Positions 12,116-64,000 of a stretch of 64,000 nt of DNA are shown here, piece by piece. Origin of the DNA: Clostridia bacterium (GTDB lineage: Bacteria > Bacillota > Clostridia > Oscillospirales > Acutalibacteraceae); assembly GCA_017407705.1 (NCBI GenBank), contig JAFQWA010000004.1, positions 1-64,000 of the forward strand. Direction: 5' to 3'. The notes below the pieces were generated by a model, which did not search any database, was not told the origin of the DNA, and saw only the letters and a program-made list of their open reading frames with translations. Within the stretch, counting starts at the first letter, position 1. Each line of letters starts with the position of its first letter. Position numbers and translations under genes: made by a program.

Positions 12116-12149
12116 TTTATTGTACAAAACGCATAAAACCTAATAACGA

Positions 12150-12217: not shown

Positions 12218-12311
12218 CGTGAGGAGCGGCGTGGGTGGGAAAAAAAGGTTGGCGGGATAAATAGCCTATCCTCTACAACATACCAATTCGCTTAAAATTT
12301 AAACAATACTC

Positions 12312-12440
12312 ACTGGGGATTCTCAAGGGCGAGCCCTTGAGCCATTCGGGAAAGGGTTTGCAAAGGGAAAACCCAGTTCTAAAGGGTTGTCCCTTTGCTG
12401 CGTCTTTCCCCCTTTTCTTCGCATAAAGAAAAGGGGTGCC
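12312..12440 (+). repeat. Repeat B, copy 1 (~130 bp multi-hairpin interspersed repeat)
   Basis: It is conserved with 23526-23651 (same strand) and 60870-60998 (opposite strand). Landmarks in order are GGGGATT, the hairpin AAGGGCGAGCCCTT, CCATTCGGGAAAGGG, GCAAAGGGAAAACCC, GCTGCGTCTTT, and the hairpin CCCCTTTTCTTCGC with AAAGAAAAGGGG. It has no open reading frame shared by the copies and no transposase. It is probably a non-autonomous or REP-like element. Confidence 0.85.
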
Positions 12441-12450
12441 AAAGCGGCAT

Positions 12451-12517
12451 GAGCGTGTGAAAAGAGGACCGGGACGTGGTGGCGCCGTCCCCTACAATGT
12501 GCACAATATAGGGGTGT
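12451..12517. repeat. Repeat A, copy 2
   Basis: The second copy of the palindromic repeat at 12150-12217. It directly follows the tail of repeat B copy 1, so A and B may be modules of one compound element. It ends ~45 bp before the terminator of the membrane-protein gene. Confidence 0.75.
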
Positions 12518-21951: not shown

Positions 21952-22156
21952 GAGGCACCCTCCGTAAGGAAGGTGCCTCAGTTATATTCGTGCTTTGCAC
22001 GAGCGATATATCATACGATGCGATATGCGTAAACGCGTGATATACGGCTTTCGCCGTACCCGGTAGCACGAATATAATATCGCAAAAGCCGAAGGCTTTT
22101 ATATCGCTTTTGCAATACGCAAAAATATCGCTGTGAGACCTGTCTCACAATATCAC
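21952..22156 (+). repeat. Hairpin array 1 (variable stems, constant GCGATAT/ATATCGC linker)
   Basis: After a first hairpin (GAGGCACC 21952-21959 with GGTGCCTC 21972-21979) comes a row of short hairpins. They are TCGTGC/GCACGA (21988-22002), GCGT/ACGC (22027-22036), ACGGC/GCCGT (22044-22057), AAAAGCC/GGCTTTT (22084-22100), TTTTGC/GCAAAA (22108-22124) and TGTGAGA/TCTCACA (22132-22149). Linkers in the left half are GCGATAT (22003, 22020) and GTGATAT (22037). In the right half they are ATATCGC (22077, 22101, 22125) and ATATCAC (22150), the reverse complement. ATATTCGTGC (21984) also pairs with GCACGAATAT (22066). No coding potential was seen in this 370 bp gap. Confidence 0.8.
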
Positions 22157-22207
22157 TTATAATTTTTATTTTTGAGATAGGTAAAAATTTAAAGTATGTA
22201 ACCCCCT

Positions 22208-23458: not shown

Positions 23459-23525
23459 TTGGCTATATTTAAGAAAATTTTCTTTCGAGATAACCTCATT
23501 TGTAATTTGCTTTATGCAAACTTAA

Positions 23526-23651
23526 TGGGGATTTTTAAGGGCGAGCCCTTAAACCATTCGGGAAAGGGATTGCAAAGGGAAAACCCAGTTTGGAAGGGTT
23601 TTCCCTTGCTGCGTCTTTTCCCCTTTTCTTCGCATAAAGAAAAGGGGCGCC
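23526..23651 (+). repeat. Repeat B, copy 2
   Basis: It is about 90% identical by eye to 12312-12440 and has the same order of hairpins. It fills most of the 290 bp gap between the CHR pair and the convergent ABC transporter gene. Confidence 0.85.
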
Positions 23652-23714
23652 ACCACGGCGTGAGTGGGAAAAATACGCAACAATAAATTTTCAGCCAAAC
23701 AGCTATCTATTGTT

Positions 23715-44754: not shown

Positions 44755-44964
44755 ATGGAAGATTCACTTGTTTTAAAAAATAATTTAAAAAAAGCCAGAA
44801 CGGAAGCCAATTTGTCGCAACAACAGTTGGCGGAAATGGTAGGTGTTTCACGCAATACCATCAGTTCAATCGAAACAGGCCAGTTTAATCCCACAGCCAA
44901 ATTGGCTTTGGTTTTGTGTATTGCTTTAGATAAGTCGTTTGAGGAATTGTTCTATTTTGAGTAA
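44755..44964 (+). CDS. Xre-family regulator
   Basis: A 69-residue Cro/CI-type helix-turn-helix protein. The core is KKARTEANLSQQQLAEMVGVSRNTISSIETG followed by FNPTAKLALVLCIALDKSFEELF, the common form of short YgzD-like regulators. The ATG at 44755 has GGGTGAGA upstream; an in-frame TTG at 44743 is less likely. It probably represses its own promoter through the three dyads at 44336-44416. Confidence 0.85.
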   Translation: MEDSLVLKNNLKKARTEANLSQQQLAEMVGVSRNTISSIETGQFNPTAKLALVLCIALDKSFEELFYFE

Positions 44965-44965
44965 A

Positions 44966-45026
44966 CCCTTGACTGATTCGGTCAATGTAGGGGCGGCTGT
45001 CAGCCGCCCTTTTTTGTTGCTGTTAT
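44966..45026 (+). terminator. Terminator-repeat, copy 1
   Basis: A first hairpin (TTGAC...GTCAA) is followed by GGGCGGCT/AGCCGCCC and TTTTTT. It is nearly identical to 45926-45987. It ends the Xre operon. Confidence 0.8.
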
Positions 45027-45145: not shown

Positions 45146-45164
45146 TAACGCAGAGGTGATGAAT

Positions 45165-45920
45165 ATGAAGATTAGAGAGTTAGAAAATCTATTATCAATT
45201 TCCCGCTCTAACATTCGTTTCTATGAAAAACAGGGCTTGTTTTCTCCTGAGCGTAAAAATAATAATTACAGAGAATATACTGAGCAAGATATCGAGGTTC
45301 TTAAGAAAATCATTGTTTTTAGAAAAATGGGGTTTACTATTGAGGAAATCAAACTTATCCAAAATGACCAATTACCGTTTACTGAAGCAACAGCCAATGT
45401 GCAACAACGAATTGAAAATGAAATTGAACAATTAAACGGCTCTTTAAAACTTATTAAACAGGTATCGGGAGAAAACTTGTCTTTTGACGAGATTAACATT
45501 GATGAGCATTGGAACGCAATAACCGAATCTGAAAAATTGGGTGAAAAGTTTGTTGATATTTGCAAAGATTTTTTGGAATTTGAACTCAACTCGTTTGACT
45601 TTATGTGGAAATATGCGTTTTTTCACGATTTCAAAAAGTCAAGGGCTAAACACGGCACGGTAATTGCTTGCGGTATATTGTTGCTGTTATGCATTTTGCG
45701 AGGTATTGGTAAAGTTCTTATTTGGAAAGAATCTTTTTGGTCGGGATTTCTATACCCCTTTGCTGTTGCATTAGCCGGAACAATCATTATCTTACCACTC
45801 TTTTTATTAAGCAAAAAGTTCCCCAAGGTTGCATCCGTTATTGCAACTGTTCTTATAGGATTAATAGTTTTGTTTCTTGCCGGTATAATTATCTTGCTAA
45901 TTTATTCAATAATTTCATAA
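45165..45920 (+). CDS. MerR-family regulator with a C-terminal membrane domain
   Basis: 251 residues. There is an N-terminal MerR helix-turn-helix (SISRSNIRFYEKQGLFSPERK, YREYTEQDIEVLKKIIVFRKMGFTIEEI) and a coiled region to ~100. A spacer with EHWNAITESEK follows, and then three hydrophobic helices (about 167-185, 198-215 and 220-248). No effector domain or Cys metal site is seen. The fusion to membrane helices suggests a one-component regulator that reads a membrane or envelope signal. The ATG at 45165 is chosen from the AGGTGAT site. Confidence 0.85.
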   Translation: MKIRELENLLSISRSNIRFYEKQGLFSPERKNNNYREYTEQDIEVLKKIIVFRKMGFTIEEIKLIQNDQLPFTEATANVQQRIENEIEQLNGSLKLIKQVSGENLSFDEINIDEHWNAITESEKLGEKFVDICKDFLEFELNSFDFMWKYAFFHDFKKSRAKHGTVIACGILLLLCILRGIGKVLIWKESFWSGFLYPFAVALAGTIIILPLFLLSKKFPKVASVIATVLIGLIVLFLAGIIILLIYSIIS

Positions 45921-45925
45921 CAAAA

Positions 45926-45987
45926 CCCTTGACCGATTCGGTCAATGTAGAGGGCGGCTATCAGCCGCCCTTTTTTGTTGCCATTAT
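45926..45987 (+). terminator. Terminator-repeat, copy 2
   Basis: TTGACCGATTCGGTCAA hairpin, then GGGCGGCT/AGCCGCCC and TTTTTT. It ends the merR gene and matches copy 1 at 44966. The following TTGCCATTATGTATCAGGCG echoes a fragment near 44292-44320. Confidence 0.8.
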
Positions 45988-46023: not shown

Positions 46024-46154
46024 CGGCTCCCTCTGACGAGGGAGCTGTCGAAACCGTAGGTTTTGACTGAGGGAGAGAATGGGGATCTATGTTGTTTTCT
46101 CTCCCTCCGTCTTTTTGCTTTGCAAAAATCCACCTCCCTCGTCAGAGGGAGGCT
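46024..46154. mobile_element. MITE-like element with GGGAG inverted ends
   Basis: The left end CTCCCTCTGACGAGGGAG and right end CTCCCTCGTCAGAGGGAG are exact reverse complements, and each is itself a hairpin. Inside, GGGAGAGAA and TTCTCTCCC also pair. Similar CTCCCTC elements are frequent in Faecalibacterium-type genomes as I recall them. There is no coding capacity. Confidence 0.7.
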
Positions 46155-63676: not shown

Positions 63677-63893
63677 ATTTGTGGACACAAATACATATTG
63701 ATGAATTGACGGCAAGCCGTCATGAATTGAAGCCTTATGGCTTCATGATTTGAAATCTAAGGATTTCATGAATTTAATTGCCCTATTTTGTCATGCCGCA
63801 GGCAATTCATGCACTAAAAGTGCAATTTATGGCGCGAGCCAATTCACGCCCGTAAGGGCAATTCATTGCGTAGTGTCCTTAAGGGCACTACGC
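63677..63893 (+). repeat. Hairpin array 2 (variable stems, constant ATGAATT/AATTCAT linker)
   Basis: Hairpins in order: ATTTGTG/CACAAAT (63677-63692), GACGGC/GCCGTC (63708-63721), GAAGCC/GGCTTC (63729-63744), GAAATC/GATTTC (63752-63767), ATTGCC/GGCAAT (63777-63806), GCACT/AGTGC (63811-63823), GGC/GCC (63831-63840), GCCC/GGGC (63848-63859), GCGTAGTG/CACTACGC (63868-63893). Linkers on the left are ATGAATT (63701, 63722, 63768) with one ATGATTT. On the right they are AATTCAT (63804, 63860), AATTTAT and AATTCAC. No gene is seen in this gap. Confidence 0.85.
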
Positions 63894-63911
63894 ATACCCC
63901 TCTCTTTTTAT

Positions 63912-64000
63912 TTATCCTTTTACCGAGCCGCCGGTAATTCCTTCAACATAAAAACGTTGCAGCACAATAAACAGTATGGTTATGGGCACTGCAATGAGCA
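63912..64000 (-). CDS. Carbohydrate ABC transporter permease, C-terminal end (partial)
   Basis: The last 28 codons of a minus-strand gene cut by the window edge. The end reads ...FIVLQRFYVEGITGGSVKG and stops, which is the hallmark C-terminus of MalG/LacG-type sugar permeases (YFVEGITAGAVKG). Its transcript likely ends at 63662-63623 after passing through the hairpin array. Confidence 0.82.
   Translation of the reverse strand, partial: LIAVPITILFIVLQRFYVEGITGGSVKG

Follow-up and report, generated by a model that had tools for sequence, protein, structure and literature searches.

Hairpin array 2 as a probable solo copy of the upstream module of an IVP-linked element

Hairpin array 2, found in the window (the whole stretch of DNA analysed, 64 kb), probably represents the upstream hairpin module of what can be called an "IVP element" (IVP, the 23S rRNA intervening-sequence protein), in a solo copy that lacks the IVP gene. 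A complete element of this kind would consist of an array of about 200 bp and, downstream of it, a gene encoding a four-helix-bundle protein of the PF05635/TIGR02436 type, with the order array, IVP gene, array at some loci. The 7-mer linker would serve as the identity tag of an element family, most likely recognised by its own IVP protein, and the hairpins would be structured spacers whose shape persists as the two arms are rewritten in concert, probably via template switching on single-stranded DNA. Solo arrays could come from dispersal in trans, or from recombination between flanking arrays deleting the gene, as in solo LTRs. Regarded as an element copy, array 2 links the Gut-1 RNA, 7-base tandem repeats and the IVP protein, and hints at selfish elements of a little-known type. 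Until now Gut-1 RNA (since 2010), bacterial heptamer repeats (with no function or mobile-element link reported) and the four-helix-bundle family IVP/S23, familiar mainly from inserts in 23S rRNA, have been left without explanation.

The hairpin cluster of array 2 spans positions 63677-63894 and is built of short perfect hairpins and 7-nt joints, the orientation of which flips in the middle of the array. The folding is exceptionally stable both as DNA (z = -6.4) and as RNA (z = -6.0), with none of 200 shuffles equally stable in either case. In the earlier note nine hairpins with a constant joint were described. The cluster is real and the short perfect stems and the mid-array inversion were confirmed, but the joint is not constant: on the plus strand the left joints are ATGAATT (three times) and ATGATTT, and the right ones AATTCAT (twice), AATTTAT and AATTCAC. 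Array 2 is better read on the minus strand, from 63894 to 63701, where the family layout fits; eight hairpins (terminator-like, A, hp1-hp6) belong to this layout and the outermost one stays outside it (Table 1). The order on the minus strand is: terminator-like hairpin, hairpin A, three 7-mer linkers with variable hairpins, A', and four inverted linkers with hairpins. A is AATTGCCC and A' is GGGCAATT, and the linker inversion comes directly after A', which is the layout of the IVP-linked hairpin element. The stop codon of the upstream gene lies 17 bp before the element; judged by eye from its C-terminus (GITGGSVKG), this gene encodes a putative sugar-ABC permease.

Table 1. Modules of array 2, its neighbourhood and array 1 (positions within the window)
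Feature	Position	Strand	Remarks
Terminator-like hairpin TGCGTAGTGCCCTTAAGGACACTACGCA	63867..63894	-	Opens the element; equivalent hairpin within the dispersed unit of L091, L109, L195/L196, L198/L199
L0 and A hairpin ATGAATTGCCC-TTAC-GGGC	63848..63866	-	AATTGCCC also pairs with distant A'; arrangement recurs in other elements
Linker L1 GTGAATT	63841..63847	-	
Hairpin hp1 GGCTCGCGCC	63831..63840	-	
Linker L2 ATAAATT	63824..63830	-	
Hairpin hp2 GCACTTTTAGTGC	63811..63823	-	
Linker L3 ATGAATT	63804..63810	-	
Hairpin hp3 GCCTGCGGC	63795..63803	-	Compare GCCTGCGGGC at the equivalent place in Gut-1 copies
Spacer ATGACAAAATA and A' GGGCAATTAA	63774..63794	-	Linker inversion point
Inverted linker L1' ATTCAT	63768..63773	-	AATTCAT if the last A of A' is included
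Hairpin hp4 GAAATCCTTAGATTTC	63752..63767	-	
Inverted linker L2' AAATCAT	63745..63751	-	Odd linker, also in IVP-linked relative L325
Hairpin hp5 GAAGCCATAAGGCTTC	63729..63744	-	
Inverted linker L3' AATTCAT	63722..63728	-	
Hairpin hp6 GACGGCTTGCCGTC	63708..63721	-	
Inverted linker L4' AATTCAT	63701..63707	-	Final module of the element
Outermost hairpin ATTTGTG-GA-CACAAAT	63677..63692		Not in the shared layout
3' end of upstream gene	63912..64000	-	Same strand as the element; ORF continues past the window
Array 1, linker GCGATAT/GTGATAT	21952..22159	+	Same layout; A = TTATATTCGTGC, A' = GCACGAATATAA; weak Gut-1 match, 29.3 bits, under the cut-off

The shared plan, obtained from copies aligned by eye, reads terminator-like hairpin - CAA - L0 - hairpin A - L - hp1 - L - hp2 - L - hp3 - spacer - A' - L' - hp4 - L' - hp5 - L' - hp6 - L' and recurs across many genera. 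Array 2 matches it module by module on the minus strand and array 1 on the plus strand. Because A' is the reverse complement of A, the latter is able to pair locally or distantly, and the distant A:A' pairing interleaves with L:L' pairing, giving a pseudoknot-like alternative. The pattern search for such arrays in relatives, proposed earlier, was productive: three spaced ATTTCAC linkers gave matches in 63 of 300 genomes of the same bacterial family (reversed control pattern, 0) and arrays of the ATGAATT type were found in 10 of the 300 (one control match).

In the E-value mode of Rfam the ATTTCAC arrays were identified as Gut-1 RNA (RF01706, 72-90 bits in relatives and up to 91 bits overall), which disproves the opinion that there is no suitable named class. 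GTGAAAT/ATTTCAC, the commonest linker type, is the Gut-1 RNA of Rfam, and its arrays in the source and related genomes reach 50-91 bits, where the gathering score is 50 bits and the model takes in 77 nt of about 210, the first half and one strand only. Gut-1 was described by Weinberg in 2010 as confined to the "human gut only", certainly an RNA and without a regulatory or riboswitch role (PMC2864571); the Rfam entry gives no function, and a literature search for Gut-1 found no report beyond this one. The available part of the Gut-1 description does not include copy number, dyad structure or IVP linkage. Carrier genomes hold up to 25 Gut-1 matches each, at unrelated sites, and a phylum-wide sample shows Gut-1 to be rare beyond this bacterial family, with 2 of 298 genomes positive. 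Set against the Rfam consensus line, the minus strand of array 2 keeps the Gut-1 module order CAA - L0 - hairpin - linker - hairpin - linker - hairpin - linker, but its linker is ATGAATT and it has no RF01706 match at E <= 10; the whole 64-kb window gave zero Rfam matches at the gathering threshold. Array 2 is therefore not Gut-1 by the rule of Rfam, and is a member of a sister linker family that shares the Gut-1 architecture.

The linkers of the two arrays of the window do differ, but the earlier statement that array 2 shares no sequence with array 1 goes too far, as both fit RYGAWDT (ATGAATT in array 2, GCGATAT/GTGATAT in array 1) and the A / A' arrangement is common to both. Their common architecture was borne out and extended by further arrays in 785 kb of stretches, about half of the source genome. 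A scan for hairpins with a common flanking 7-mer found array 1 (GCGATAT), array 2 (ATGAATT) and arrays on contigs C4 (ATGATAT) and C17 (GTGAAAT), with zero arrays in a size-matched Markov control, and a fifth array (C8, linker GTGAAGT) was noticed by reading a hairpin cluster. An architecture detector, which itself demands mid-array linker inversion, returned array 1, array 2 and the C17 array from the same 785 kb and 0 arrays from 3.9 Mb of second-order-Markov shuffles. Since 82 elements were also orientable from the independent A/A' pairing, the mid-array inversion is taken as a rule of the family. The source genome holds 7 Gut-1 matches above the cut-off. Several arrays with different linkers and one architecture, together with a linked protein gene, speak for a general system that builds or maintains them, as had been supposed.

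The IVP linkage of the arrays is well supported. Comparison of loci showed the element directly upstream of one small gene in three independent locus pairs, and the product of this gene is a TIGR02436 "four helix bundle protein" (98 bits; PF05635, 23S_rRNA_IVP) with a solved structural relative, 2RLD. Of the 300 genomes of this family, 144 have PF05635. These comprise 57 of the 63 with arrays and 87 of the 237 without (Fisher p = 4e-15, on presence/absence counts that ignore phylogeny); after removal of G161, whose ATTTCAC matches are simple repeats and not arrays, p = 1e-14. No IVP was detected in six array-positive genomes. Among 70 elements with full flanks, fetched regardless of IVP, ten have an IVP gene at a distance of <=700 bp, and most element copies are solo. 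Many IVP genes fetched regardless of arrays carry a hairpin array directly upstream, with the linkers GTGAAGT, GTGATGT, ATGATGT, GTTATAT, ATGAAGC, GTGATAT, GCTAAAT and GTGAAAT.

The linker type of array 2 adjoins an IVP gene in four other genomes (G168, G015, G224, G226). At locus L325 of G168 an ATGAATT array, alignable with array 2 and sharing the AAATCAT linker with it, lies directly upstream of the gene; the G015 locus (L346) has the order array-IVP-array of the ATGAATT type, and the IVP genes of G224 (L355) and G226 (L365) adjoin ATGAATT-type arrays. GTGATAT arrays resembling array 1 are situated upstream of IVP genes at L286, L288, L307, L319 and L326. No IVP gene is present in the 64-kb window or in L003, and arrays 1 and 2, having no IVP nearby, are thus solo copies. 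Elsewhere in the source genome an IVP fragment is located at the edge of contig C30, 0.5 kb from an array, and another one overlaps the end of an array on C32. In a tree of 33 IVP proteins the 11 linker types, labelled by eye prior to tree construction, require 11 changes (minimum 10), in comparison to a mean of 23.1 for shuffled labels, with 0 of 200 shuffles as low. Linker type and IVP protein are co-inherited. Such co-inheritance is a prediction of recognition, and physical linkage alone would give it too; the 7-mer may be the cognate site of the IVP protein. With one 7-mer to each IVP, cognate binding is to be expected, and solo arrays become assignable to their IVPs.

Where an IVP gene has no hairpin array, plain tandem 7-mers mostly flank it, and these are often inverted from one side of the gene to the other. 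When the flanks of 80 IVP loci were searched for 35-nt windows with at least 26 matches, 40 flanks passed, at lags 7 and 14 only, and shuffles gave 0; among random windows of the source genome 3 of 3000 passed the periodicity threshold, 0 of them at lag 7 or 14. In 37 of 79 cases the upstream flank resembles the reverse complement of its own downstream flank beyond the 99th percentile of mismatched pairs. Heptamer-flanked IVP genes occur in five phyla, plasmids of Cyanobacteria, Bacteroidota, Chloroflexota and Spirochaetota included. The unit of the Planktothrix locus L340, AATCCCC, is complementary to the reported Nostoc repeat GGGGATT, and a Bernardetia plasmid (L337) carries at least 15 perfect tandem copies of GTGATTA, a heptamer cited for Helicobacter pylori (PMC4692102), upstream of its IVP gene. 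Loci L270 and L279, with hairpins between heptamers around the IVP gene, are intermediates. A literature search found no report linking IVP genes to heptamers as a class. The heptamer-flanked IVP genes of plasmids L341, L344 and L345 have a DUF1156 and a Swt1-HEPN gene as their neighbours on either side in two phyla, and in a third precede cas1; in a 2023 survey IVP is listed beside CRISPR adaptation modules (PMC10910872).

The stems of the family covary. Across 40 ATTTCAC elements of full length, the majority of outer stem pairs occur in 2-4 Watson-Crick types, and double changes were found in 18 of 30 predicted consensus pairs. For the three outer pairs of hp1 and hp2, 235 of 240 cells are Watson-Crick and 0 are G-T, and this near-lack of G-T intermediates suggests that both arms change together, as by template switching. 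Variable yet perfectly paired stems would also be a natural record of arm-copying mutation. The second half of the element has GNA/GNNA loops (59 G.A pairs vs 2 T.C) and the first half TNC loops (14 T.C vs 0 G.A); the favoured strand of each half is the one reading ATTTCAC, which means opposite strands for the two halves. The second-half loops of array 2 itself (CTTA, ATAA, TT) lie outside the GNA rule. GNA triloops are unusually stable DNA mini-hairpins, and owing to this stability single-stranded DNA is favoured as the active form of the arrays.

The dispersed repeat unit takes in the terminator-like hairpin. Two 211-bp copies at L109 (97.6% identical), two 247-bp copies at L091 (95.5% identical) and, in the source genome, the near-identical units L195/L196 and L198/L199 all have differing flanks, such dispersed copies being known from related arrays and not from array 2. 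A tRNA gene precedes the element by about 35-40 nt at several loci, and the unit is duplicated in tandem at L047 and L046. Three IVP units are placed within tRNA-Leu genes and surrounded by direct repeats of 45, 39 and 23 bp, which look like target duplications of variable length. Among the fetched loci there was no clean case of an empty site for a solo array, the 40-bp repeat around L288 not being clean. The array elements may be mobile; should the units indeed spread, they could represent mobile DNA of a type that has no known transposase. At L091 and L109 the order is tRNA, element, non-IVP gene(s), element, over 0.7 and 2.7 kb, which is cassette-like between direct element copies; integron-like cassettes were considered because of this order, and the two L109 elements enclose an ORF that is not IVP.

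A search for an enzyme linked to the arrays had been suggested; a linked protein gene, IVP, was found, but no catalytic enzyme. RVT_1 is present in 5 of 20 array-bearing genomes, and one in the source genome lies on a different contig (C38). A local reverse transcriptase as the mover was ruled out as a general companion because it is absent in 15 of the 20 carriers. Y1_Tnp is present in 9 of the 20 and absent in 11, among them the many-copy genomes G250, G175 and G173. The "REP-type system" of the earlier note, in which REP/BIME-like arrays are moved by a Y1 (RAYT) transposase, agrees with dispersed intergenic palindromes in inverted pairs, but the arrays have variable stems and constant linkers, whereas REPs show the opposite, and the transposase is not general; this explanation is largely refuted and has hardly any probability left.

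Two other explanations of array 2 deserve attention. According to the first of them a transcript of the array functions as a folded RNA, a Gut-1-like sRNA, with IVP as a possible protein partner. Stem covariation and the identity of the commonest linker type with Gut-1, called certainly RNA by its authors, agree with it, and so does the resemblance of IVP to Avd of diversity-generating retroelements, PF05635 and BPP-1 Avd being considered homologous (PMC10053308). However, the halves favour opposite strands, so no single transcript accounts for both; triloops are frequent and tetraloops not confined to GNRA, the element comes after a terminator-like hairpin, and up to 25 matches per genome stand at unrelated sites. 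An sRNA is on these grounds unlikely. Still less likely is that the arrays are local terminators or spacers amplified by replication slippage and template switching, without movement, and that IVP is a bystander or a regulator binding them. In its favour, the scarcity of G-T intermediates in the variable stems is a sign of arm-copying mutations, units are duplicated in tandem in places and terminators adjoin the arrays, but slippage leaves unexplained how near-identical units, terminator hairpin included, came to stand at unrelated sites, one ordered layout in dozens of genera, and linker types tied to IVP clades.

The solo-copy reading of array 2 can be set against known systems. The insertions (IVSs) in 23S rRNA with an S23/IVP ORF, as in Coxiella burnetii, are likewise selfish elements with an IVP-family gene, inverted repeats and GACAGAT heptamers before the S23p ORF (PMC4990558). 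They are located inside 23S rRNA and cut out by RNase III, whereas the units described here lie between genes or in tRNA genes, mostly lack the ORF and have heptamers separated by hairpins. Heptamer tandem repeats (cyanobacterial STRR; GGGAATC of Xanthomonas, GGGGATT of Nostoc; Rehm 2015, PMC4692102) are also 7-bp units, often in inverted pairs, and no earlier tie to IVP genes was found in the literature on them. REP/BIME sequences with RAYT are alike in being dispersed inverted-pair palindromes and differ in the features named above. As for diversity-generating retroelements, no template/variable repeat pair was seen here, and RVT_1 occurs in just 5 of 20 array-bearing genomes. A wider proposal, which is tentative and falls somewhat short of an even chance, is that IVP (S23, Avd-like) is the trans-acting factor of widespread selfish elements with protein-specific 7-mer arrays, plain or hairpin-interrupted, spreading without a known transposase or a reverse transcriptase of their own; Gut-1, the 23S rRNA IVSs and at least some heptamer repeats (cyanobacterial STRR, Xanthomonas GGGAATC) would be forms of one class. 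The array 2 element is best seen as a variation on IVS/S23 elements and Gut-1, and there is a real chance that the class, taken as a whole, is new.

Other repeats were noticed in the window. Two copies of about 65 bp (44963-45026 and 45923-45987), 92-94% identical, contain a strong terminator, GGGCGGCTGTCAGCCGCCC-TTTTTT, and bracket an ORF (45156-45920) the start of which looks like a MerR-type regulator. An inverted pair, GCTCCCTCTGACGAGGGAGC / CCTCCCTCGTCAGAGGGAGG, at 46024-46152 has the look of a small MITE-type repeat. A repeat of about 155 bp is found at 12308-12462 and 23520-23673, 11.2 kb apart and 76-88% identical, and part of it recurs 303 bp off, at 12148.
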